DNA from: Basidiobolus meristosporus CBS 931.73
Lineage: Eukaryota > Basidiobolomycota > Basidiobolomycetes > Basidiobolales > Basidiobolaceae
Assembly: GCA_002104905.1 (NCBI GenBank)
Contig: MCFE01000769.1
Location: forward strand, 1-37,965
Length of the DNA stretch: 37,965 bases
Direction: 5' to 3'
The notes beneath the pieces are model-generated. The model did not search any database and was not told where the DNA came from. It saw nothing but the letters and a program-made list of their open reading frames with translations. The position numbers and the translations under genes were made by a program. Positions within the stretch are counted from its first letter, which is position 1, and each line of letters begins with the position of its first letter. Shown here one piece after another: positions 9,695 to 37,965 of this stretch.

Positions 9695-11699
9695 TTAGGC
9701 GGTCTTGCCTCTTCCCTTGGTGATGTAGAAGGGGGAGATCAGGTATGGATCGTCATCAGCCTTGAACTGCTCGGGGAATGCTTCCCGGAGCATCCTGGGG
9801 AACACAGAGCCATGGAATCTCTTGTTGTAGGAACCAGTACCAACGGTGTACTCATAGCCCCAGTTGGTTAGTCTGGCTGGGTTGTACTCGTCAGTCAAGA
9901 AGCGGTCATTACGAAGAAGATTGACAGCATCGGCGAGGATGGCCCGAGAGGTGGTGTAGGGAAGACTGATACCACCGTTGGTCTTGGTGCTTTCAACGAC
10001 GATTCCAGGGTAGAGCTCAACGTTATTAGGGTGACGGTAGAGAGCGCGCAGGGTCTTCGCAATACGAGGATCGGGGTTGATCTCCTCGAAAGTCTCGTAC
10101 TCCTTGAGGTTGAAGTAGCGACGGAATTCATTCAATGTGCAGCATCCAGCCATTCTGCTCTGCATGATGCCAGCAATCTCCACATCCTTGAATGAAGTGG
10201 GAACCATACCGGCACCCAGTTTTCCGGCTACGCTGTCCATGGAACTCTTCAGAAGATTCACAATGTCTGCATCGGCATAACGATCGTCAGGACCGCGTCT
10301 GAGACCAATGATCAAACCTTTGTCGATGTCCTCGGGCTTGACACCGGGGTCGATGACCGAAAGTTTCTGAGCCAACAGACTGTTGATCTTGTCATGCACC
10401 TCATCGGGCGGAGTGGTCTTGATGATGCTGCTCACCTCCGTCTTGAATTCGCGGTATTGTTGGTTGATCCTGGATTCTTCGAGCCAACGGGTATCCTTCT
10501 CACCTAGAGCAGAGTGCCATCTGTAAACAAAGTTGAACTCCAAAGAGACAGCGTTGCCGTTTCTGGAGTCACTCTTAGGGGGCTCCATCAAAGGATCCAG
10601 CGTGAAGTCGGTGTCGGCCGGGAGACCCAGGATGCATCTTACGTAGTTGTGAAGGATCAGATTTGCGTAGCAAGCACCGTTGATCAAGCGTGCGGTTTGG
10701 AACAAGTGCTCGTCCTGAACATCTTCGCCACGGTTGGCACTGAATCGGTTGTCTTGGTTGATCTCGAGAAGCTTCTGGGCGATGAAGTTGTGGTTACGTG
10801 AGAACACGATCAAGAGTGCGCCCACCCCAGGAAGCAGGAAGGTCACTCGTCGGTCGGCAAAGGAGTCAGGTCGGATCAATCCCTTCTTTCCGGTACGGAT
10901 GGACCATTGGGACTCCTTAGAGTCGCCATACAGGACACTGAGGTCGGCGTATGAGGTGGCCTGGTTAATCATGGGATTGGTAGGGGAGGAGTGGAACAGG
11001 TCGTGGGTGATCAGTGTGGCAAGATGGAACAGAAGGGTGTTGATGTTGAACGGATGTGGAACGAACTTGTCTCCTCTGTCCAATAAGGTGTCGAAGAGAA
11101 CATCAGGCGCAGGTAGGTAGTTGTCGGTGAGACGAATGCGCTTGGATGTTACGCTGCGAGCGTAGGGAGTATTGGCTTTGCCCATGTTTGGGTAGATCAC
11201 CGAATTGTTCGACCCATCCGCTTCACGGTATCCATACTCAGGGAATACATACTGGGGCTTCTGGAGGTCATCCCAGAACTGCTGGATGAGCTTGCGTTGG
11301 ATGCCGATGCTGGCGGGGTCGTTTTGCGGGAGCTTGGCGACGATTTGCATGAGACGTTCGAATGGAATGCTCCTACAAAGTGGAGAAGGCACGATGTGGC
11401 CCTGAGTTAGTAACGAGCGCGAAATCCAAGCCAAATCTGCGGAAATACCGGTCGTCCATGGGCTTGGATTTAGGAGAAACCACTTCTTGGAAGCCGAACT
11501 TGAGGGTACCAACGACATCGGAGGGAGGAAGCTGCAAGAACTCATTCAAGGCATTGATGTACTTGATAAAGTCCCTGCTTATAAAGAACTGGACGGTCTT
11601 GCTGAGGACTGTCAAACCAAACAAGACAATTTGGGCAGCGATGGTCACGCTGAAGTATACCGCATAAACACCGAGGTTGACAATGCTGAGGCCCAACAT
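9695..11699 (-). CDS. Heme fatty acid dioxygenase (psi-producing oxygenase type), no P450 domain
   Basis: Animal-heme-peroxidase-fold fatty acid dioxygenase of the Ppo/linoleate diol synthase family, which puts molecular oxygen on oleic or linoleic acid to give hydroperoxides. Two exons, 11699-11449 and 11372-9695, joined over a 76-nt intron (GTATTT donor, TACTAAC branch site, TTTGTAG acceptor); the join restores the family pattern DDR..xE.L...AKLP and gives 642 residues. Key residues are present: distal heme His207 (THDLF), catalytic Tyr367 and proximal His370 (YRWH). SADGSNN-, PYAR-, LFDTL- and YTTSRAIL-type family blocks are also visible. Residues 5-40 are strongly hydrophobic, a likely membrane anchor that the classical soluble enzymes lack. 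The protein stops after the dioxygenase domain, so it lacks the C-terminal P450 half that isomerises the hydroperoxide in most Ppo proteins. Transcribed divergently from the lipase at 12161. Substrate and product are inference. Confidence 0.93.
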
Positions 11700-19412: not shown

Positions 19413-20111
19413 ATTGTGAAAATTTGCAGTTCCTCCTGAATATGCAACCAACTCAGTCACATCTATCTTTACTTACAAACTCTAGAAAATACTGACAAGA
19501 CTTCTTATTGGGATTTACTTGGAATATTTACACCAAAATATCATGTACCCGGATCATGAAATTTGTCAAAGTTGTCCAAACAGCCCCAAACTTTGCACAC
19601 ATGCTCTTGGGACCTTGCCAAACCTATTCTACATGCTTGTTATGCTTGTTGTAAAATTTGTAATTCCACCTAAATATTCCCCTAACTTAGTCACTTTGAT
19701 CATTACCTATACTTTCAGAGAATACAGACCAAATTCCTTATTGGGATTTACTTTGAATATTTTCACCAAAATCTCTGGTATTCAGAACATAAAAATTATT
19801 GAAGTTGTTCAAACATCCCCAAACCTTGCACACATGTTATTGGGTCCTTCCTAAACCTATTTTATGTGTTTGCTGTACTAAGACCATGTAAAATATAAAT
19901 ACTACTTTTATGTTGAATAAATCATTAAGTGAAAACCGCATACTCTTCTTGTCCTCCTAATTACTTCCAATATCTCCAAGACTCTTACAACAATGCTAAG
20001 TCTATGTGTAAGTATAAATACTACTTTTAAGTTCAATAAATCATTAAGTGAAAGTTACATTAACAATTTTTTCTCCTAATTACCTTGGATATCTCCAAGA
20101 CTCTTACAACC
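19413..20111 (+). repeat. Older plus-strand copia LTR, split by a younger one
   Basis: Left half 19413-19646 (TTGTGAAAATTTGCAGTTCC ... ATGCTCTTGGGACCTTGCC) and right half 19993-20111 (TATAAATACTACTTTTAAG ... CTCCAAGACTCTTACAACC) are the two parts of one diverged LTR. The insert at 19647-19992 separates them. Confidence 0.8.
19647..19992 (+). repeat. Nested solo copia LTR with ATGCT target-site duplication
   Basis: 346 bp with TGTTGTAA/TTACAACA ends, flanked by ATGCT at 19642-19646 and 19993-19997. More diverged from the 1828 copy than the 18799 copy is, so it inserted earlier. It sits inside the LTR at 19413-20111. Confidence 0.93.
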
Positions 20112-29600: not shown

Positions 29601-30707
29601 ATGAAGATCATACGCTTTACGATGGTAGCTTCGGCCGCCCTGAAGGTGATGCTGGTACAAACTGCGTCTTCCCGGCTCCCATTTCCCGCTCCATCTGGTA
29701 GGTTCAAGGTTGGGACAGTTGAGTTGCACCTGGTAGACCGCAATCGAACCGATCCGTACGCACCTACCATGCAAAATCGGGATCTTATGGTCCAGCTGTT
29801 TTATCCCACTAAACGTACCAAAGGGTATCCTCTGTCATCATACATGCCTAAAGGCACCGCTGAAATTTATAATCAAATCCTTGAATTGGCGAACAATACT
29901 ATTCAAAGGGTTAAAATACAAGCATATCGGGGTGCTCCCATTGCCAATTCTAATTTACCAATTGTGATATTTTCTCCTGGTTTAGGGGTATCGCGTTGTC
30001 TGTGCACCGCATCAGTGTTAGATATGGCTAGCCGTGGCTACCTAGTAGTGGCTATAGATCATCCATACGATACTGGAATTGTGGAATTCCCAGATGGAAG
30101 GTTGGTCCTGGGAGTCCTGCTTGACCCGACTCTTGAACAGACTGAAAAGGCTGTGTTGGTCCGCACTCAAGACGCTAGCTTTGTCTTGGACCTGCTTGGT
30201 ACATCAGAAAGTAGACGACTGATTCCAGGCTTAAGACAAAAGCTAAATACTCATGAGGTGGTCATGTTCGGACACTCACTTGGAGGAGCAGCCTCAGCAT
30301 CTGCCATGCTGACTGATACTCGCATTATTGGTGGGGTCAACCTTGACGGCTGGTTCTGGGGTCCAGTAGTCGACCAGGGGTTGGATCGGCCCTTTCTTAT
30401 GATAAGTAGTTCTCAAGTTGAAATCGATCCTGCAAATACCTGGCCAAGATTATGGTCAAAGCTACGGGCTTGGCGTTTTGAGCTCCAACTAGCGGACTCT
30501 GAACATATGACTTTCTCAGATTGGCCGCTATTGATTGATGTATTCAACTTAACCAAGGCCAGTGTTGGCTCTATCAACGGAGCTCGTGCCATGGAGATCC
30601 AGCAGGCCTATATAGCTGCGTTTACTGAATCTGTTTTTCGCCACAAAATTGCGAAACTTTTGCTGGGGCCTGATTCGAGATATCCCGAGATCTCCTTCAA
30701 ACATTGA
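29601..30707 (+). CDS. Secreted PAF-acetylhydrolase-like alpha/beta hydrolase
   Basis: 368 residues, single exon. Residues 1-24 look like a signal peptide. The body matches the plasma PAF-acetylhydrolase / lipoprotein-associated phospholipase A2 family, which releases short or oxidised acyl chains from phospholipids. LPIVIFSPGLG (120-129) is the oxyanion-hole strand-turn, GYLVVAIDHPY (146-156) the next strand, GHSLGGA with nucleophile Ser226, NLDGW with Asp249, and DSEHMTFSDW with His302, all in order and spacing for the family. RDLMVQLFYPT is the usual first core strand. The triad is complete. It is the third lipid-acting gene in the window, after the lipase and dioxygenase, but lies 16 kb from them. 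Start chosen at 29601 because of the AAAATG context and the TATA box; Met8 is an alternative. Confidence 0.88.
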   Translation: MKIIRFTMVASAALKVMLVQTASSRLPFPAPSGRFKVGTVELHLVDRNRTDPYAPTMQNRDLMVQLFYPTKRTKGYPLSSYMPKGTAEIYNQILELANNTIQRVKIQAYRGAPIANSNLPIVIFSPGLGVSRCLCTASVLDMASRGYLVVAIDHPYDTGIVEFPDGRLVLGVLLDPTLEQTEKAVLVRTQDASFVLDLLGTSESRRLIPGLRQKLNTHEVVMFGHSLGGAASASAMLTDTRIIGGVNLDGWFWGPVVDQGLDRPFLMISSSQVEIDPANTWPRLWSKLRAWRFELQLADSEHMTFSDWPLLIDVFNLTKASVGSINGARAMEIQQAYIAAFTESVFRHKIAKLLLGPDSRYPEISFKH

Positions 30708-30956: not shown

Positions 30957-31855
30957 TTGAAAATACTAAACTGCTTGTCAATTTCAGCTGGATATTATTG
31001 GGCCGCAGCGCTCTACTTTGGATCAATTCGATACGTTGGGAAAAGGACTAGTATTGATCTCCAACGCATCGATACTACCAGAGTCAAAGATAATGAAATG
31101 TTTATGGTTTGGAATTATAAAGCTTATCAAAATCAATTAAGTTGGGAATATAAAAACGCAAATGAAGAAAATATATACCAACTAATTACTCAAATTTCCT
31201 TTCAATCCCTTTGTAAATCAGCTTCTGTCACTGGTGGTGTAGTGTCATCATTTATTATCGGGAATCCTGAGGGAGATGAGATTGACTTAAAATGGGTTGG
31301 TGGAAACCCCAGTCTGGTTCAAACTAACTACTACTTTGACAACATTAAATATTATAAGCACTATGGACATGCCAAGAATGCAACAGTTGGGAGTGAAACT
31401 TCTGCTGGCCTCAGTAAATATATGATGCGATGGGAAGAGAAACTAATCAATTCCTGTGCCAACAAGATAGTCAGAACCGCTCTGAGAAAAGATACCTACA
31501 ACCACATAATAAAAAGAGTCATTATCCTAGCCTGTTTGACTTTGGATTTGTGACATTAATGCTTACAATAGTGGCACATTGAATTGGCTGGTGGGCCAAC
31601 TGATTGGTGCAAACCATGTACCAAATATAAAGTCTACTTTGAATCTATTGATATGCAATATAAGCATAGTTTGAATCTTCCTTGGGATCCACCCAAGATC
31701 CCTGCATTCATTTCTTCTACTGCAGATACACTCCTACTCATTTCTCAAAAGTAAAAACAAAGTCTACAACTGGTAAGAATGCTGGTTCTGTGCAAATATT
31801 CAGCACTGTCCTCATGGGTGCCACTTTCTTGTTCATGAACTATGCACTGAGCTGA
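30957..31855 (+). pseudogene. Broken GH16 Crh-type cell-wall transglycosylase
   Basis: Remnant of a Crh/Utr2-type GH16 enzyme, which links chitin to beta-glucan in the fungal wall. The frame at 30957-31553 holds GGVVSSFI, then DEIDLKWVGGNPSLVQTNYY, the GH16 catalytic block; the position expected to be the second Glu is Lys (codon 31290-31292), so the acid/base residue is lost. After the stop, further pieces appear in other frames: ELAGGPTDWCK near 31580, YFESIDMQYKHS near 31640, and a hydrophobic GPI-type tail (GKNAGSVQIFSTVLMGATFL) ending at a stop at 31853-31855. The N-terminal signal region is not convincing. Frameshifts, stops and the lost Glu agree that it is dead. Confidence 0.72.
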
Positions 31856-32299: not shown

Positions 32300-32476
32300 T
32301 GTTGTAGGATTTTTGGAGATAATGGAAGTGATAGGGAGAACAAGTAGATTATGTAATCTTCACATAGTGATTTAATGAGTGCAATACTAGTTTTATACTT
32401 TTACATAGTAATGGAAAGACTGACACATAAAGTATGCTCAAAATAATCCCAAGAACATTTGATCAAAGTTGGGTTA
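32300..32476 (-). repeat. Copia LTR cut off at the start of the telomeric array
   Basis: Minus-strand LTR from TGTTGTAGGATTTTTGG to CCCAAGAACATTTGATCAAAG, about half of the family length, then it stops at GTTGGGTTAGGGG, where the first telomeric tail begins. It is the innermost edge of the terminal array. Confidence 0.8.
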
Positions 32477-32573
32477 GGGGAGAGAAAGTCACCAAGTTGG
32501 TGAAATCTTTATTTGAGTCAAGAACTAATCTAAGTACAAATACAGAAGCCAATTAAGAAGTCTAGAACCTTTC
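32477..32573 (-). mobile_element. Short 5'-truncated telomeric retroelement, tail 1
   Basis: About 97 bp. Minus-strand 3' end: AATAAAGATTTCACC-AACTT-GGTGACTTTC, then CCCC merging into TAACCC. Upstream sequence (to CAGAAGCC, AGAACCTTT) matches neither the LINE nor the SINE-like element, so it may be a third family. It is bounded by TTAGGGG on the inside and TTAGGGTTA on the outside. Confidence 0.7.
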
Positions 32574-32665
32574 TTAGGGTTAGGGGGGAGGAAAGTCACC
32601 AAGTGATGAAATCTTTATTTACTTATGACAAGTATCCAAAGAAGCCATGTTAATCTGAAGTTATT

Positions 32666-32784
32666 CCTAGAAAGCTAGGTCTGAGAGATATCTTCCTGGT
32701 AAGCCAGGTCTGAGAGTTGAGAAGCTGAGTGGTACTATATTTCCTAGTTAGCTAGGTCTGAGAGAGGTTTCCTGGAAAGCCAGG
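32666..32784 (-). other. Four-hairpin module in the SINE-like element
   Basis: Four short inverted repeats on the plus strand: CCTAG-AAAG-CTAGG (32666), CCTGG-TAAG-CCAGG (32695), CCTAG-TTAG-CTAGG (32743), CCTGG-AAAG-CCAGG (32771), most followed by TCTGAGAG. They form two pairs spaced 29 and 28 bp, 77 bp apart. The fourth stem pair alternates A-T and G-C with both sides changing together. All four recur in the copy at 34417-34664. Confidence 0.75.
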
Positions 32785-33042
32785 CCTGAGAAGTGAGAAT
32801 CTAAGTTTATCTGAGTTGAGTTGTACTGGTTTGCGGTGGCTGAATTGTGGCCGGAATGGCCAGTAGACTGTGGGAACTGAGATGAAATTCTGGGCAATCA
32901 CTGGCCAAGTTTACTAGGCAAATTTGGCCAATTAGCATTTCAAGGATTTCAGCCAATCAGAGCCTTTACTTTGCCTGATGGTTGATCAAGCCATCTTCCA
33001 ATGAGCACACATCAATTTATTAATCAAATTTTGCTGGATCCA

Positions 33043-33096
33043 GGATTTGAACCCACAACCATGGGTATGGAAGGGTTAGGGATAACCACAAGGCTA
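33043..33096 (-). promoter_or_regulatory. Pol III type 2 internal promoter (A and B box)
   Basis: Minus strand: A-box-like TAGCCTTGTGG (33096-33086) and B box GGTTCAAATCC (33053-33043), 43 nt apart start to start. The flanking arms no longer fold as a full tRNA, so this is a tRNA-derived promoter and not a tRNA gene. Confidence 0.62.
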
Positions 33097-33110
33097 AGTG
33101 TTCTTGGTTA

Positions 33111-33374
33111 GGGGGGGAGACAGTCACCAACAGGTGAAATCTTTATTTCAGTTGAAACAAAGAAGCCAGCACTACTGTTGTAGCTTTGATACAAGAGTGT
33201 GTAGCTGAGGGCAATTTGTAGGTAAGTTATTAAGAAGTGATGATAGTTCTTCAGTGCTCAAGACACTGTTCAGGGGGAAGGGGGGTAGCAAGAGAGGTAG
33301 GAATGACTTGTGAACAACATTAATGAGGGGAATGTGATAAGGCTTGATATTCATCATAAAGGGAGTGTGCTGCT
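33111..33374 (-). mobile_element. 5'-truncated copy of the telomeric LINE
   Basis: About 264 bp, roughly 97 percent like the 3' end of the LINE at 34767-37730 by eye. It encodes the same C-terminus (HTPFMMN, YHIPLINVVHKSF, STEELSSLL, HTLVSKLQQ stop) and the same 3' tail with TCACC-TGTT-GGTGA and C7. The likeness ends exactly at GTGCTGCT (33374), where an LTR begins. Confidence 0.9.
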
Positions 33375-33820
33375 TGTTGTGCATCAACATTTAAACTTAG
33401 CCAATTTTACTCTGTTTGAAAATCTAGTACCCTAACTGATTTTCCCTAACCCAAACATAACAAATCCCAGTTACAGTTTATTTTATCCCACCTCAGAATC
33501 TATTTTTAGCTATCACACCTGATCTATTTTCAAATGGTCATTACGTTATCAACCTATCTGCTAAGCCTTCCCAGGTGATTAGTCATCTGAGATCTATCCA
33601 ACCACGGTGCAGTTGCCAAGACATCAGTTGATTGATGATGTAATTTTCATTTATCTTATGCACCTATGAACACCCAAATTTATCTCAATCAATCCAGTCC
33701 CTTGGCGCTTACTAAGTCAACTTGATCAGAAAAGTATAAATAAAGTTTACTGAACCTTTTGGTTTAGTGTGTGTCTCAACAAAATTAAGATTCTGTCTCA
33801 GCAAAAATAAGAATCCAACA
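33375..33820 (+). repeat. 5' LTR of a different LTR retrotransposon (446 bp)
   Basis: Begins TGTTG at the point where the LINE copy stops and ends CAACA at 33820, giving matching TGTTG/CAACA ends. It contains TATAAATAAA at 33735-33744 about where an LTR promoter should lie. Sequence is unrelated to the copia LTR. A primer-binding site after 33820 was not identified. A gag-like frame follows on the same strand. Confidence 0.6.
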
Positions 33821-34110
33821 ATTCCGTTCTAGTTTCTATCCAAGCCTAGTATATCTAGCACTCCAAAGAACACCAAGCCTAGCCTGCCTAGCAAACAAAT
33901 ATCATTGTCTTTATAGCCAACCCAGCTATATCCAAGACCAATATTAGATCAGAATCTTTCTGCTAATATTTCCGCCACTCTCTGACAATTCTAAGATTCT
34001 GCACTTAATTGTCCCTTTGGTTCAGTTAAACCATTCAAGAGTTCTATTACACTTTCTCTTGGATACAACATTTTTTTCGTTGAATTCCATTACATTCAGC
34101 CAATCAGAAG

Positions 34111-34416
34111 ATGTCCTCAGCAGCAAGCAATGCAAACCTTTCCATGTTGGAAGAGGCCAGAAGAAATCAGGAAGAACTTACTGAACAGCTTGAAAACATC
34201 ATGCTTGAAAGAAATACCATGATGCTTGAGCACTCAAAGCTTGCCAAAACAAGATCTGATAATCACCGTAGAGATGAACTCCTTGAAGTTATATCCGGTT
34301 ACCAAGATGAAATTGGAATAATTAAGGAAGCACTGGAGAATATTGCCATAGTAATTGACAGCATTGTAAATCCGCCAAGCCTTGCTCTGCATCAGCCACC
34401 AAGAAGTCATGCCTTA
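34111..34416 (+). pseudogene. Truncated gag-like ORF of the LTR retrotransposon
   Basis: ATG at 34111, about 100 codons: MSSAASNANLSMLEEA, then a glutamate/lysine-rich coiled-coil-like stretch to residue 85, then a proline-rich PPSLALHQPPRSHA segment. This suits the N-terminus of a Ty3/gypsy-type Gag. It is cut at 34414-34416 by the telomeric junction CTTAGGGGGGG; the frame runs on by chance into the next element to 34488. No pol sequence remains. Confidence 0.6.
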
Positions 34417-34664
34417 GGGGGGGAGGAAAGTCACCAAGTGGTGAAATCTTTATTTACTTATGACAAGTATCTAAAGAAGCCAAGTTAATCCAAAGTTATT
34501 CCTAGAAAGCTAGGTCTGAGAGATATCTTCCTGGTAAGCCAGGTTTGAGAGTTGAGAGGCTAAGTGGTACTATATTTCCTAGTTAGCTAGGTCTGAGAGA
34601 GGTTTCCTGGAAAGCCAGGCCTGAGAAGTGAGAATCTGAATATATCTGAGCTAAGTTATACTGG
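34417..34664 (-). mobile_element. 5'-truncated copy of the SINE-like element
   Basis: About 248 bp, closely similar to 32583-32830, including all four hairpins and the tail (TCACC-ACTT-GGTGA, C7). The match ends after TATACTGG. A short telomere-like filler (GTAGGGTGTAGGTTA) joins it to the next tail. The tRNA-like head is missing. Confidence 0.82.
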
Positions 34665-34679
34665 GTAGGGTGTAGGTTA

Positions 34680-34733
34680 GGGGGGAGACAGTCACCAACA
34701 GGTGAAATCTTTATTTCAGTTGAAACAAAGAAG
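34680..34733 (-). mobile_element. Minimal LINE copy: only the last 54 bp
   Basis: Holds just the LINE 3' UTR end: CTTCTTTGTTTCAACTGAAA, AATAAAGATTTCACC-TGTT-GGTGA and C6. Its 5' end is joined directly to TTAGGG repeats. This is the shortest insertion in the array and shows that the tail alone marks an insertion. Confidence 0.85.
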
Positions 34734-34734
34734 C

Positions 34735-34766
34735 TTAGGGTTAGGGTTAGGGTTAGGGTAGGGTTA
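34735..34766 (+). repeat. Interstitial telomere repeats
   Basis: Four TTAGGG units, one shortened unit (TAGGG) and a final TTA between the minimal LINE copy and the full LINE. Same orientation as the terminal telomere. Confidence 0.95.
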
Positions 34767-34778
34767 GGGGGGAGACAG

Positions 34779-34792
34779 TCACCAACAGGTGA
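34779..34792 (-). other. Conserved 3'-tail hairpin of the LINE
   Basis: Minus strand TCACC-TGTT-GGTGA, 5-bp stem and 4-nt loop, ending 12 nt before the telomeric TAACCC. It follows AATAAAGATT. The same stem is present in all seven tails of the window, including those of unrelated elements. Likely the recognition element for the reverse transcriptase. Confidence 0.75.
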
Positions 34793-34826
34793 AATCTTTA
34801 TTTCAATTGAAACAAAGAAGCCAGCG

Positions 34827-37595
34827 CTACTGTTGTAGCTTTGATACAAGAGTGTGTAGCTGAGGGGAATTTGTAGGTAAGTTAATAAGAAGTGATGATA
34901 GTTCTTCAGTGCTCAAGACACTGTTCAGTGGGAAGGGGGGTAGCAAGAGAGGTAAGAATGACTTGTGAACAACATTAATGAGGGGAATGTGATAAGGATT
35001 GATATTCATCATAAAGGGAGTGTGCTGCTGCAGATATTGCTGCCAAAGGTCTGTCAAGTACTTCAGGTAGGCCAGCTTGGGTTTTTCTGACTGCAGAATA
35101 AATTCAGCAAACTTCTTGACTTCAGGATCTCCAAGTATGGTTCTCCAGCAGGAGCCAGGTGTTGTGTGGTGTGTTCTCTTCCAGGCCTTAATCAGTGGGT
35201 TGTTGCAGTTGTGAAGTCTGAGGTATAATCTGGTTCTTAGGTAGAGAAGTCTGATCTTATAGGGCATAAACCCAAAAGCACCAAGAATAGCATGTCTGTA
35301 GGGGCATTCAGGCAAATGAGGCACCAAGGAGGTAATGCACCATACTGCAAACTTGTCAAGCTTAGTGCAGTCTCTAGAAGTAAGAGAGAGAAGTGGTAAG
35401 CCAAATTCCAGGACAGGGAAGACAAACTGCTTGAGTAGAAGGATGCAGCTGGGAGCTGAAGTTGTAGGAGGAGTAACAGCCAGTAGCTTGTGGAGTGCCT
35501 GTCTTGCTAGGATAATTCTCTTCTTCAGGTGTGCTCCAGAGTCTAGTCCAGTAGGAAGGAAAGGAAAGCCAAGATATGTAGCAGAAACCTGAGCAGGTAG
35601 AGTGGAGTTCTCCAAGTTGATGGGAGTGCCCAAAGGTACTGTCTTTGCAATGGAAAGCTGGAGATTATTCTTCTGCAGATACTGGTGGATGGTCTGGGAG
35701 ACTTGTTGCACATTGGAGGAGGATATTCTGATGTCATCAGCAAAGAGAGTAACCAGGCAGTCAGCTGAGAGTCTTGGGAAATCATTCAGGAAGATGGCAA
35801 ACAGTATAGGGCCAAGCACAGAGCCTTGAACCACTCCATTAGGAACTGAGAACACTGGTGATTGCTCACTTGGGTGCAGAATTCTTGCTTGTGGATCCAG
35901 AAACAGAGACCTGACAAGGAGGGTGAGAGAGGTACTGGAGAAGCATTGCAACTTGGACCAAAGCAGATTTCTGTCAACTGAATCAAAGGCCTTAGTAATA
36001 TCAAACAGAACAGAGGGATACTTGCACTGGAGAGAGTGATCTTGGCTAAGTATGACTGCATATTCCAAGGAGAGGCCAGGAACAAAGCCAAACTGTGCAG
36101 GATGAAACTTGAGGGAGTCAGAGTAGAGCTCCTGAGCAAGCAGAAGCTCAAACACCTTTCTGCAGGTGGGCAGCAGAGATATAGGTCTGTAGGAGCTAGG
36201 ATCCAGGTGCTTTCCTTTACCCTTGTACAGTGGCAGAACATTTGCAAAGGACCACTCCTCAGGAGTAGAAAGCTGGGCTGAGCATTGCTGAAACAGTGGA
36301 AGCAGAAGTGCAGACATGGCCTTGGTACTAGTCTTCAGAAGCTCATAGGAGATTGTGTCCACACCTGGAGCAGTAGAGTTGGGAAGCCTCTTGAGCACAT
36401 TATGGATTCTCTCTTGATCAAGTGCAAGTGGGATGGGCAGAGTCTTGAAGTCAGGATGAAAGCCAGGAGTTGAGTACTGCTTTGTAGAGAAGAAGATGTT
36501 AGCCAGCTGTTCTGTTGAAGGTAACTTCCTGGAAGAGGGCCTCATTGCCCTGTAGAGTCTTGATACTGTTCTTGTTATAGAGTTGGAAGATTGCAGAGGC
36601 AAGGAACTCATAATATGATCCCAGAGCTGAGTATGCAGAGTGTGGTGAATTGCCTTGGAGTGGTGTATTGCTGTCAGGAGGAGTTTCTCTGTTTTTGGGT
36701 TAGGGAAACTCAGATAGCTTTGTTGCAGGGCTGAAACAATAGATTCCCATTTTCTTGAGGTAACAGCAGTAGTCTTGCATGGCAGTGAGAGGGAGGCAGA
36801 CACCAGAATCAGATGCTTCACAAAGAGCCAGGCATAGTTGAGATCATCTGGCAGAGAAAGTAGCAAACTGGCAAGCTTCAAGTAGTTCCCAAAGTCTTTC
36901 TTCTGATTCTTGGTAGCTTTGTGGGTGAGCACAGTAAGTTTTGGCAGCTTCTTCTTCACAACTGGTTGCATAGAAAGGGACCAGGCTGGGTGGTCAGAGG
37001 CTCTCAAGGATCCTAGCTCAGCTGCAGAGAATTGCTTAACTTCATTCACAAAGTAGAGGGCAGCAGCAGAAGGGCAGATCCAGTCAACACATCTTTTCTC
37101 AGATTGAGCACCTAGTGCTAGCAGATGGCTTTCTCTCAGGAAGTTCAGTAGGAATGTAGACCTTGGCTTCATTCTTGCAGTCAGAGTAGTCTTGTTCTCA
37201 GGATGGGGAATGTTGAGATCTCCAAGCAAGATAATAGGTGTTGATATAGATTGCTGGTATTGCTGAACATTCTGGCATATAACTTGCACTTCCTGAAGGG
37301 GGAGACTTGGAGGCAGATAGCAGAGCACCAGACTGATAGTTGGCAACTGGAGAGCAGCACAGTAAGGGGAGTAAAGAGGAACACAGAGCTGAGGAGTATT
37401 GATGGTAGAAGAGATGAAGCAGATAGAGGATGTATTCTTTGTTCTAGGAGTAGAAAAGCAATATAGATTAGTCAAAAGTATAGAGGGTAGCTGGACATCA
37501 ATCAAACACAGGAGGGAAAATCTTGAAAGAAGTCTCTCTAGAGTTGGTCTTGATGGCTGTATGCTGTTGCAGTTAAGTAACAGAACTTCAGGTAG
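34827..37595 (-). CDS. LINE ORF2: APE endonuclease and reverse transcriptase
   Basis: 922 codons open from the codon after a TGA (37598-37596) to TAG at 34829-34827. The endonuclease is apurinic-type: a LLLNCNSIQPS start, GDLN at 37223-37212, CVDWI, and SDH at 36998-36990. The usual first-domain Glu (xxQE) appears as Asp in LCLIDVQ. The reverse transcriptase has its motifs in order: APGVDTISYELLK, SYRPISLLPTC, DITKAFDSVDR, GVVQGSVLGPILF, and the active site FADD (35744-35733), then the thumb-like LGFPFLPTG. The C-terminal 250 residues show no RNase H and no clear zinc knuckle. No stop or frameshift spoils the frame, so it may be functional. No ATG lies near the start of the open frame; the first useful Met is at TARMKPRS. 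Translation may need readthrough of the TGA or a non-ATG start. Confidence 0.9.
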   Translation of the reverse strand, partial: LPEVLLLNCNSIQPSRPTLERLLSRFSLLCLIDVQLPSILLTNLYCFSTPRTKNTSSICFISSTINTPQLCVPLYSPYCAALQLPTISLVLCYLPPSLPLQEVQVICQNVQQYQQSISTPIILLGDLNIPHPENKTTLTARMKPRSTFLLNFLRESHLLALGAQSEKRCVDWICPSAAALYFVNEVKQFSAAELGSLRASDHPAWSLSMQPVVKKKLPKLTVLTHKATKNQKKDFGNYLKLASLLLSLPDDLNYAWLFVKHLILVSASLSLPCKTTAVTSRKWESIVSALQQSYLSFPNPKTEKLLLTAIHHSKAIHHTLHTQLWDHIMSSLPLQSSNSITRTVSRLYRAMRPSSRKLPSTEQLANIFFSTKQYSTPGFHPDFKTLPIPLALDQERIHNVLKRLPNSTAPGVDTISYELLKTSTKAMSALLLPLFQQCSAQLSTPEEWSFANVLPLYKGKGKHLDPSSYRPISLLPTCRKVFELLLAQELYSDSLKFHPAQFGFVPGLSLEYAVILSQDHSLQCKYPSVLFDITKAFDSVDRNLLWSKLQCFSSTSLTLLVRSLFLDPQARILHPSEQSPVFSVPNGVVQGSVLGPILFAIFLNDFPRLSADCLVTLFADDIRISSSNVQQVSQTIHQYLQKNNLQLSIAKTVPLGTPINLENSTLPAQVSATYLGFPFLPTGLDSGAHLKKRIILARQALHKLLAVTPPTTSAPSCILLLKQFVFPVLEFGLPLLSLTSRDCTKLDKFAVWCITSLVPHLPECPYRHAILGAFGFMPYKIRLLYLRTRLYLRLHNCNNPLIKAWKRTHHTTPGSCWRTILGDPEVKKFAEFILQSEKPKLAYLKYLTDLWQQYLQQHTPFMMNINPYHIPLINVVHKSFLPLLLPPFPLNSVLSTEELSSLLINLPTNSPQLHTLVSKLQQ

Positions 37596-37730
37596 TCAGG
37601 CAGAGATTGTAGCTTCTTCAGAGGCAGCATTGACAATGTGACCTGCAGAGTCCCAGAGCTCTTCAAATGGTGCATCACTTAAGTCAGCAAGGAGGGAAAT
37701 GGCATGGTTCTTGAGGAAGTATGCCACATA
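37596..37730 (-). pseudogene. C-terminal remnant of the LINE upstream frame (ORF1?)
   Basis: 44 codons in the same frame as ORF2 (YVAYFLKNHAISLLADLSD, then FEELWDSAGHIVNAASEE, ISA) ending in TGA followed by CTA. It is cut at its start by the terminal telomere. It has no recognisable domain. It could be the end of ORF1 or, if the TGA is a mutation, a stretch before the endonuclease in a single ORF. Confidence 0.55.
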
Positions 37731-37965
37731 GGGTTAGGGTTAGGGTTAGGGTTAGGGTTAGGGTTAGGGTTAGGGTTAGGGTTAGGGTTAGGGTTAGGGT
37801 TAGGGTTAGGGTTAGGGTTAGGTTAGGGTTAGGGTTAGGGTTAGGGTTAGGGTTAGGGTTAGGGTTAGGGTTAGGGTTAGGGTTAGGGTTAGGGTTAGGG
37901 TTAGGGTTAGGGTTAGGGTTAGGGTTAGGGTTAGGGTTAGGGTTAGGGTTAGGGTTAGGGTTAGG
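37731..37965 (+). repeat. Terminal telomere, about 39 TTAGGG units
   Basis: Uninterrupted TTAGGG to the last base, G-rich strand running outwards as expected for a right-hand chromosome end. One unit is short (TTAGG, 37818-37822). The array begins directly on LINE sequence at CCACATA. Confidence 0.98.

Follow-up and report, generated by a model that had tools for sequence, protein, structure and literature searches.

Telomere-specific non-LTR retroelements as probable builders of head-to-tail arrays at the chromosome ends of Basidiobolus meristosporus

The right end of contig MCFE01000769.1 from Basidiobolus meristosporus CBS 931.73, analyzed here over its whole length of 37,965 nucleotides (the window), carries a head-to-tail array of retroelement copies closed by a terminal telomere. 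We consider it probable that arrays of this kind are built by a guild of telomere-specific non-long terminal repeat (non-LTR) retroelements, which are primed by the telomeric G-strand and capped by telomerase. Six element tails were located in the window by a hairpin motif starting at 32488, 32595, 33123, 34430, 34691, and 34778; all six lie on the plus strand and none on the minus strand, and the element 3' end faces the centromere in each. The C-run that ends an element reads as a G-run on the plus strand, and these G-runs begin at 32477, 32583, 33111, 34417, 34680, and 34767. Three families are represented, namely the long interspersed elements (LINEs) A (32477) and C (33111, 34680, 34767), and B (32583, 34417), which resembles a short interspersed element (SINE). 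The original prediction for this DNA had described six same-facing tails from at least two, perhaps three, families; the orientation was confirmed, and a fourth family, D, was recognized genome-wide. The features of the array are listed below (ORF, open reading frame; APE, apurinic/apyrimidinic endonuclease; RT, reverse transcriptase).

32474..32480, plus strand: most centromere-proximal junction, TTA and G-run, adjoining non-element subtelomeric DNA; the telomeric sequence, read directly, is GGGTTAGGGG in total
32477..32573, minus strand: family A LINE, tail-only copy with its 3' end at 32477, tail loop GTTG and linker AGAGAAA; aligned with the L040 copy
32574..32582, plus strand: interstitial telomeric tract TTAGGGTTA, then the next G-run
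32583..33107, minus strand: full-length SINE-like element of family B, whose 5' end at 33107 reads CCAAGAAC; A-box-like motif and B box present
33111..33374, minus strand: family C LINE, 5'-truncated; 263 nt match a full-length copy of the family at 97%
33375..34413, no strand assigned: other DNA inside the array, probably a piece of an LTR retroelement, with a 111-aa open frame; no family C match beyond 33374
34417..34664, minus strand: family B, 5'-truncated, joined to the preceding DNA via TTAGGGGGGG
34680..34734, minus strand: family C, 55-bp tail-only copy
34735..34766, plus strand: interstitial telomeric tract, the longest in the window; one unit is imperfect
34767..37728, minus strand: family C LINE copy truncated in ORF1, ~99% to other copies, capped by the terminal telomere
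34830..37595, minus strand: ORF2, 922 aa, with a predicted N-terminal APE-type endonuclease (NCN, LID, GDLN, VDW, SDH) and an RT (FADD), from domain search and motif columns
37596..37598, minus strand: UGA stop, followed by CUA, between same-frame ORF1 and ORF2
37599..37728, minus strand: ORF1, 3' part
37729..37965, plus strand: terminal telomere (TTAGGG)n, 237 bp

In the proposed mechanism, the ORF2 protein of A and C would recognize a 3' hairpin shared by the families, CACC-loop-GGTG, which is followed by a run of mostly 4–7 C. The C-run of the RNA would pair with Gs of the telomeric strand and reverse transcription would begin there; each copy would then have its 3' end on TTAGGG, facing the centromere, and its 5' end facing the chromosome tip. 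The SINE-like B and the ORF1-only D would use the A/C enzyme by means of the same tail. Copying would often stop early, with the cDNA end held by 1–4 nt of microhomology, and telomerase would extend that end with TTAGGG, the next element being added while the telomere is still very short. The priming 3' end could be either the natural chromosome end or an endonuclease nick, and both are kept here as readings.

Strand rule and junctions across the genome

Genome-wide searches covered the 89.0-Mb assembly of 1,311 contigs. The tail motif, searched with a pattern that fixes the hairpin stem, was found at 1,544 places (1,416 forward, 128 reverse), and a reversed-pattern control gave none. A perfect TTAGGG lies no more than 12 nt upstream in 1,225 of these tails and two TTAGGG units occur in 283, while CCCTAA was found in the same 12-nt space in 0 of the 1,544. 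Independently of these counts, tail orientation and junctions were tabulated in 41 contig pieces (265,819 bp), a non-random sample chosen mostly around ORF2 copies of C and A. This tabulation, suggested as a check on the original prediction, yielded 103 tails, 102 on the plus strand and one on the minus strand (C1257:2880, near the left end of its contig). The junctions follow a simple grammar of TTA, G-run, family linker, and hairpin, with at least TTA before the G-run in 93 of the 103, in agreement with the G-strand junction that had been foreseen, TTAGGG(G)n followed by the tail. TTA preceded the G-run in 76 of 85 cases (first tails) compared with 33 of 462 other G-runs of at least 4 nt, which together with the strand bias places the junction pattern beyond chance.

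Assembly-wide, the telomere word occurs 7,428 times forward and 81 times reverse, and the tails have the same strand bias; the assembly places the telomere at the right-hand end of its contigs. On contig C424, tails and SINE 5' ends are on the minus strand within the first 1.2 kb (5' ends at 141 and 669) and on the plus strand beyond 311 kb (5' ends at 311,582 and 312,331), and both ends of this contig seem to obey the strand rule. Positions agree with orientation: on the 27 contigs above 60 kb with known lengths, 79 of 79 tails of the ORF2-centered sample are no more than 25 kb away from the contig end that their 5' side faces. An assembly artefact joining repeats at contig ends might be suspected from the non-random contig orientation and from the repeats at contig ends themselves. 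This explanation is almost certainly wrong, given that the junction grammar recurs at 1,225 of 1,544 places and that 49 of 51 scored ORF2 copies are free of stops.

The junctions also bear on the possibility that the arrays arose mainly by recombination or break-induced replication between chromosome ends. A few ends do have the same junction, the 103 tails reducing to 96 unique ones, and pre-cap sequence is common to contigs C427 and C853 and to C324 and C1281. Nevertheless, 96 of the 103 junctions are distinct when compared by the 40-bp left flank and the loop, and truncation points are many, so that we regard this origin as highly unlikely.

Four families and their common tail

The tail, comprising the hairpin and the C-run, is carried by at least four families: the LINEs A and C, the SINE-like B, and the ORF1-only D. 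Assignment was by tail loop and left 2 of the 103 sampled tails unassigned; 47 belong to C (two of them variants), 31 to B, 15 to A, and 8 to D. The common part consists of AAATAAAGATTTCACC-loop-GGTGAC, a linker, and the C-run. The hairpin is present in the minimum-energy folds of all four tails, and the whole tail folds clearly better than shuffled sequences in C alone (z -3.86, with -0.24 for B, -1.83 for A, and -1.54 for D). A G-run of 3–9 nt, corresponding to a 3'-terminal C-run, was found at 103 of 103 tails. Its length depends on the family, being 6–7 in 39 of 46 C tails, 4 in 11 of 15 A tails and in 7 of 8 D tails, and mostly 5–6 in B, which indicates that the element RNA itself includes the C-run.

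Family C, the LINE of the window, has full copies of ~4.6 kb. Family A is a second LINE, alignable to C over several coding stretches with ~67% DNA identity, and its ORF2 is 44–51% identical to relatives P0001–P0004. Family D (8 tails, with one whole copy read, on L042) encodes one 242-aa protein and has no ORF2. This protein resembles the C-terminal part of C ORF1 (35%, 1e-21; 80 bits, where shuffled sequences reached 25 at most), and D has the last 75 nt in common with A.

Family B is a 514-bp element; its 15 full-length copies measure 512–516 bp as far as the hairpin, and 209 intact 5' ends occur genome-wide. All 15 copies, which are not independent of each other, carry TAGCCTTGTGGTTA, which resembles an A box, at +11 and the B box GGTTCAAATCC at +54. 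The longest ATG frame is 35–64 aa, with none above 64 aa, and the likeness of B to A, C, and D is confined to the last ~37 nt. By sequence, B thereby appears to be a SINE: short, non-coding, with promoter boxes for RNA polymerase III (pol III), and with a LINE 3' tail. ARAGORN at its default setting called no tRNA in family B, and a descent from tRNA is for that reason unproven.

In the cDNA sense, the 5' ends finish in GG in B (TTCTTGG), in one form of C (AAAGAGG), and in the whole D copy (GGTGGG); such ends would suit telomerase or a C-run as template. The 5' end of family C may exist in more than one form. Among 9 places with GACTAATTTAAAGAGG, GTTAGGG comes next in 5 and the sequence continues in the other 4; AGTAAAGG, tried as the 5' end of this family, proved too narrow with 2 matches. 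Within the 5' untranslated region of C lies TTAGGGTTAGGG (L041 3519–3530, L042 2718–2729, and others), identical in 12 of 12 copies found by their flanks. Past a copy of family C, close to the contig end, lies an 86-bp tandem repeat (L012 5376–5676), which also occurs in L039.

Encoded proteins, telomeric tracts, and the priming of reverse transcription

The 922-aa ORF2 of family C matches RVT_1 (2.6e-25) and, weakly and under the curated cut-off, Exo_endo_phos_2 (2.4e-4). With an APE-like endonuclease predicted ahead of the RT in ORF2, A and C are classified from sequence as APE-type non-LTR LINEs. Alignment placed the endonuclease positions N8, Y93, D126, N128, D171, D201, and H202, with D33 replacing Glu. 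This change from Glu to Asp at a metal-binding position is found in 28 of 28 C copies free of stops, in 5 of 5 A copies, and, among the 6 rows of their own group, in the 3 that cover the site; the same column in 47 more distant RT proteins has Glu in 44, Asp in 1, and a gap in 2. Such a conserved substitution is an oddity that can be tested. The best Protein Data Bank (PDB) matches of ORF2 were to L1 ORF2p across the RT part, and a PDB search with the endonuclease part alone gave no match up to E 10. Domain search of C ORF2 for a C-terminal restriction-like endonuclease gave no further domain, and no C-x-C-x-H-x-C motif of published spacing was found in it. In an RT tree built without an R1 reference, A, C, and P0001–P0005 form one group (Shimodaira–Hasegawa-like approximate likelihood-ratio test 100, stem 1.62), in which A falls with P0005 and C with P0001, P0002, and P0004. 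The placement of this group is unsure because long branches meet there.

The ORFs are intact and under selection. Of 1,388 candidate copies of C ORF2, 51 were scored; 49 of these are without stops, at 98–99% identity. The ratio of nonsynonymous to synonymous polymorphism (pN/pS), calculated from stop-free copies only and so favoring low values, is 0.174 in the endonuclease part and 0.178 in the RT of family C, 0.285 and 0.162 in the respective parts of family A (5 copies), and 0.372 in C ORF1 (7 copies). The low endonuclease value indicates that purifying selection keeps this domain from decay.

In those copies of C and A that were read, one UGA separates ORF1 from an ORF2 in the same frame, and no ATG precedes the endonuclease motif. 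The context TCTGCC-TGA-CTAC, common to A and C, is present at 36 of 36 places located by the endonuclease motif, and the flanks of family C gave 140 matches genome-wide with any codon allowed in the gap and 140 with TGA. An invariant UGA in the same frame without an ATG for ORF2 suggests read-through and points to the UGA-CUA boundary as a candidate site. UGA CUA is a leaky context for termination. Support for this was sought in PMC5009743 and was not found in its accessible part. The boundary is a further oddity that can be tested.

Telomeric tracts between elements are short. By exact match and with the G-run included, a measure that undercounts tracts holding an imperfect unit, the median is 12 bp and the maximum 32; with imperfect units allowed, the median is 13 and the maximum 48, with 17 of 103 tracts above 18 bp and 10 above 24. 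The predicted telomeric caps are present in the form of 17 terminal TTAGGG arrays of 136–237 bp (lower bounds, as contigs end there); the array at 37729–37965 in the window measures 237 bp. The short tracts suggest that elements are added on nearly bare ends. A supposed cliff in tract length at two repeats was dropped, as the counts of 68, 19, 2, and 4 among the 93 TTA junctions approximate a geometric series.

Short tracts could also be produced if, as in TRAS/SART of silkworm, the APE-type domain nicked the G-strand within the TTAGGG array, the RNA was copied, and the distal repeats were rejoined, with long tracts breaking afterwards and short ones surviving. We take this as a serious possibility, if short of an even chance. 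The endonuclease keeps its other catalytic residues, apart from an Asp-to-Asn change (at D171) in one of 28 C copies, and its pN/pS in C is low. According to the accessible part of PMC7367193, stable interstitial tracts between MoTeR elements in the rice blast fungus are at most (TTAGGG)2 and at least AGGG, near the range found here, and longer ones break; survivorship could in this way yield short tracts from endonuclease-dependent insertion. However, a uniform target within a telomere of ~200 bp predicts many long tracts, whereas by exact match 13 of 103 exceed two repeats and 6 reach three, and no tract exceeds 48 bp when imperfect units are counted. The Glu-to-Asp change at the metal-binding position also speaks against cutting of this kind.

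Truncated 5' ends overlap the adjoining tract more than random joins would. At 35 clean joints the mean overlap is 1.80 nt compared with 0.76 nt for random joins, with at least 1 nt in 32 of 35 and at least 2 nt in 20 of 35 (null 0.48 and 0.19, respectively), and 0 of 10,000 simulated means were as high as observed. This microhomology would also be in keeping with template jumping, by which RNAs ending in one or two CCCUAA units would let the RT pass from the 5' end of one template to the 3' end of the next, laying down several copies at once without telomerase in between. Such a process would fit the presence of at least A and GGG at 102 of 103 junctions and of about one or two units at 87 of 103 (exact match). 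On the other hand, B would not be expected to read through likewise if it is a pol III transcript, tracts of 18–27 nt left of the G-run exist, and terminal caps overlap too (1, 3, and 3 nt in the 3 truncated caps scored). We therefore judge template jumping unlikely.

Capping by telomerase, as the preferred reading of G-strand priming has it, is in accord with a telomerase gene, which is probably present, as the telomerase RNA-binding domain was matched twice above its cut-off at C880:173109–173423. The original prediction had likewise combined G-strand extension with a telomerase cap in a repeating cycle. The junctions and the probable telomerase gene sustain that part. The array of the window is interrupted at 33375–34413 by DNA of none of the families, parts of which recur at other contig ends. 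Where this unrelated, probably LTR-derived DNA stops, the family B tail at 34417 is attached through a single TTAGGG, and the joint could represent a broken end healed by element B.

Several observations weigh against the preferred reading. By exact match, the bases ahead of the G-run fall short of TTA at 10 of the 103 junctions, and the C343 junction is without any telomeric base. Genome-wide, 319 of the 1,544 tails are without a perfect TTAGGG in the 12-nt space, a number that may include mutated or long-G-run cases. The tail at C402:165365–165409 has two TTAGGG units and is separated by ~79 kb from the remaining tails on its contig, which makes a position far from any end probable; it is likely to be an internal relic or to mark fused chromosome ends. 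The microhomology test uses 35 joints of 96 unique junctions: 33 of the others have a neighbor unmatched to the four references, 4 are full-length ends, and the rest fail to align to the last base or fall short of TTA. Regular 5' ends of C may account for two of the 35, and without them 18 of 33 joints overlap by at least 2 nt with a mean of 1.73. The telomerase matches are partial (positions 48–133 of 133), and one crosses a stop, being read without introns. To these may be added the stop-free sampling behind the pN/pS values. Finally, a selected endonuclease argues that cutting matters, and a model in which priming is from chromosome ends only needs no cutting.

As a tentative extension, which we hold possible but doubtful, the ends could be jointly maintained. 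Ends that are broken or almost bare would first be extended by the LINE enzymes, with LINE, SINE, and ORF1-only RNAs as templates, and telomerase would only finish the cap; the 5' GG ends and 3' C-runs would have evolved to mimic telomere primer and template.

Comparison with known telomeric elements and neighboring features

Arrays of HeT-A, TART, and TAHRE in Drosophila are likewise head-to-tail, with the 3' end to the centromere. These elements substitute for telomerase, whereas Basidiobolus has TTAGGG caps, seen in 17 terminal arrays, and telomerase-domain matches. Athena and Coprina, endonuclease-deficient Penelope-like elements, contact telomeric G-strand repeats with their 3' end; they differ from the Basidiobolus elements in their RT class and in having no APE-type domain. 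In eel, UnaSINE1 borrows the 3' hairpin of the LINE UnaL2, like B, although this pair is not known to be telomeric. TRAS and SART have poly(A) tails and an RT of the R1 clade. A poly(A) 3' tail of this type was not found among the 103 sampled Basidiobolus tails, all of which end in a C-run. According to the accessible part of PMC4700185, TRAS and SART resemble the Basidiobolus LINEs as telomere-specific elements whose ORF2 holds both endonuclease and RT and whose host has telomeric repeats, and differ in their TTAGG target, which is cut between T and A.

Among fungi, there is a likeness to MoTeR1 and MoTeR2 of Magnaporthe oryzae, which are telomere elements with the 5' end to the tip, arrays with short TTAGGG tracts, and a second element with the same 3' sequence; MoTeR1 differs in its putative restriction-like endonuclease and in variant repeats at its 5' end (PMC7367193, accessible part). 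An APE-type endonuclease ahead of the RT, a tail that ends in a C-run, and the presence of a SINE-like partner set the Basidiobolus system apart from MoTeR. FoTeR of Fusarium oxysporum, as described in the available part of PMC12857005, is also a non-LTR element restricted to chromosome ends in fixed orientation, for which target-primed reverse transcription is proposed; it belongs to a CRE-like clade, has a C-terminal restriction-enzyme-like (REL) endonuclease, and is followed on its 3' side by ~3–7 TAACCC. In Basidiobolus, as in MoTeR and FoTeR, the 5' end points to the chromosome end at telomeric repeats. The expectation that this system would have an APE-type endonuclease, in contrast to the restriction type of known fungal elements, was borne out by the weak Exo_endo_phos_2 match and the motif columns on one side and by the REL-type endonucleases of MoTeR1 and FoTeR on the other (PMC12857005; PMC7367193, in the parts available).

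Telomeric LINEs as such are known; an APE-type fungal group and a telomere-specific SINE-like partner both look new. In literature searches on telomeric SINEs, on Basidiobolus telomeres and retrotransposons, on APE together with telomeres, and on telomeres of early-diverging fungi, whose scope was mostly papers outside subscription, the results found did not name this system. It looks like an independent case of APE-type telomere elements beside telomerase-type caps in an early-diverging fungus. Telomere-specific retroelements are few, and Basidiobolus adds more than 1,200 junctions, two LINE families that stand well apart, and a SINE-like partner sharing their target. With so many junctions and several families at one target, priming from natural ends or from nicks, and the sharing of ends between retroelements and telomerase, become directly testable. 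The system thus provides a new natural case of how retroelements and telomerase divide chromosome ends.

Rfam and ARAGORN gave no matches in the window. Outside the array, a Copia-type RT (RVT_2, 4.9e-54, frame 539–1816) occupies the left end of the window at 3–1816, and a 119-bp tandem repeat of 1.8 copies lies at 19894–20110. Just inside the array is a GH16-like open frame (30957–31553; 4e-11, partial domain), adjoined by a gene resembling platelet-activating factor acetylhydrolase (29601–30707). One further feature, an ORF with 100% identity across 91% of its length to a heme peroxidase of B. meristosporus CBS 931.73, is listed in the same form.

9698–11545, minus strand: heme peroxidase ORF

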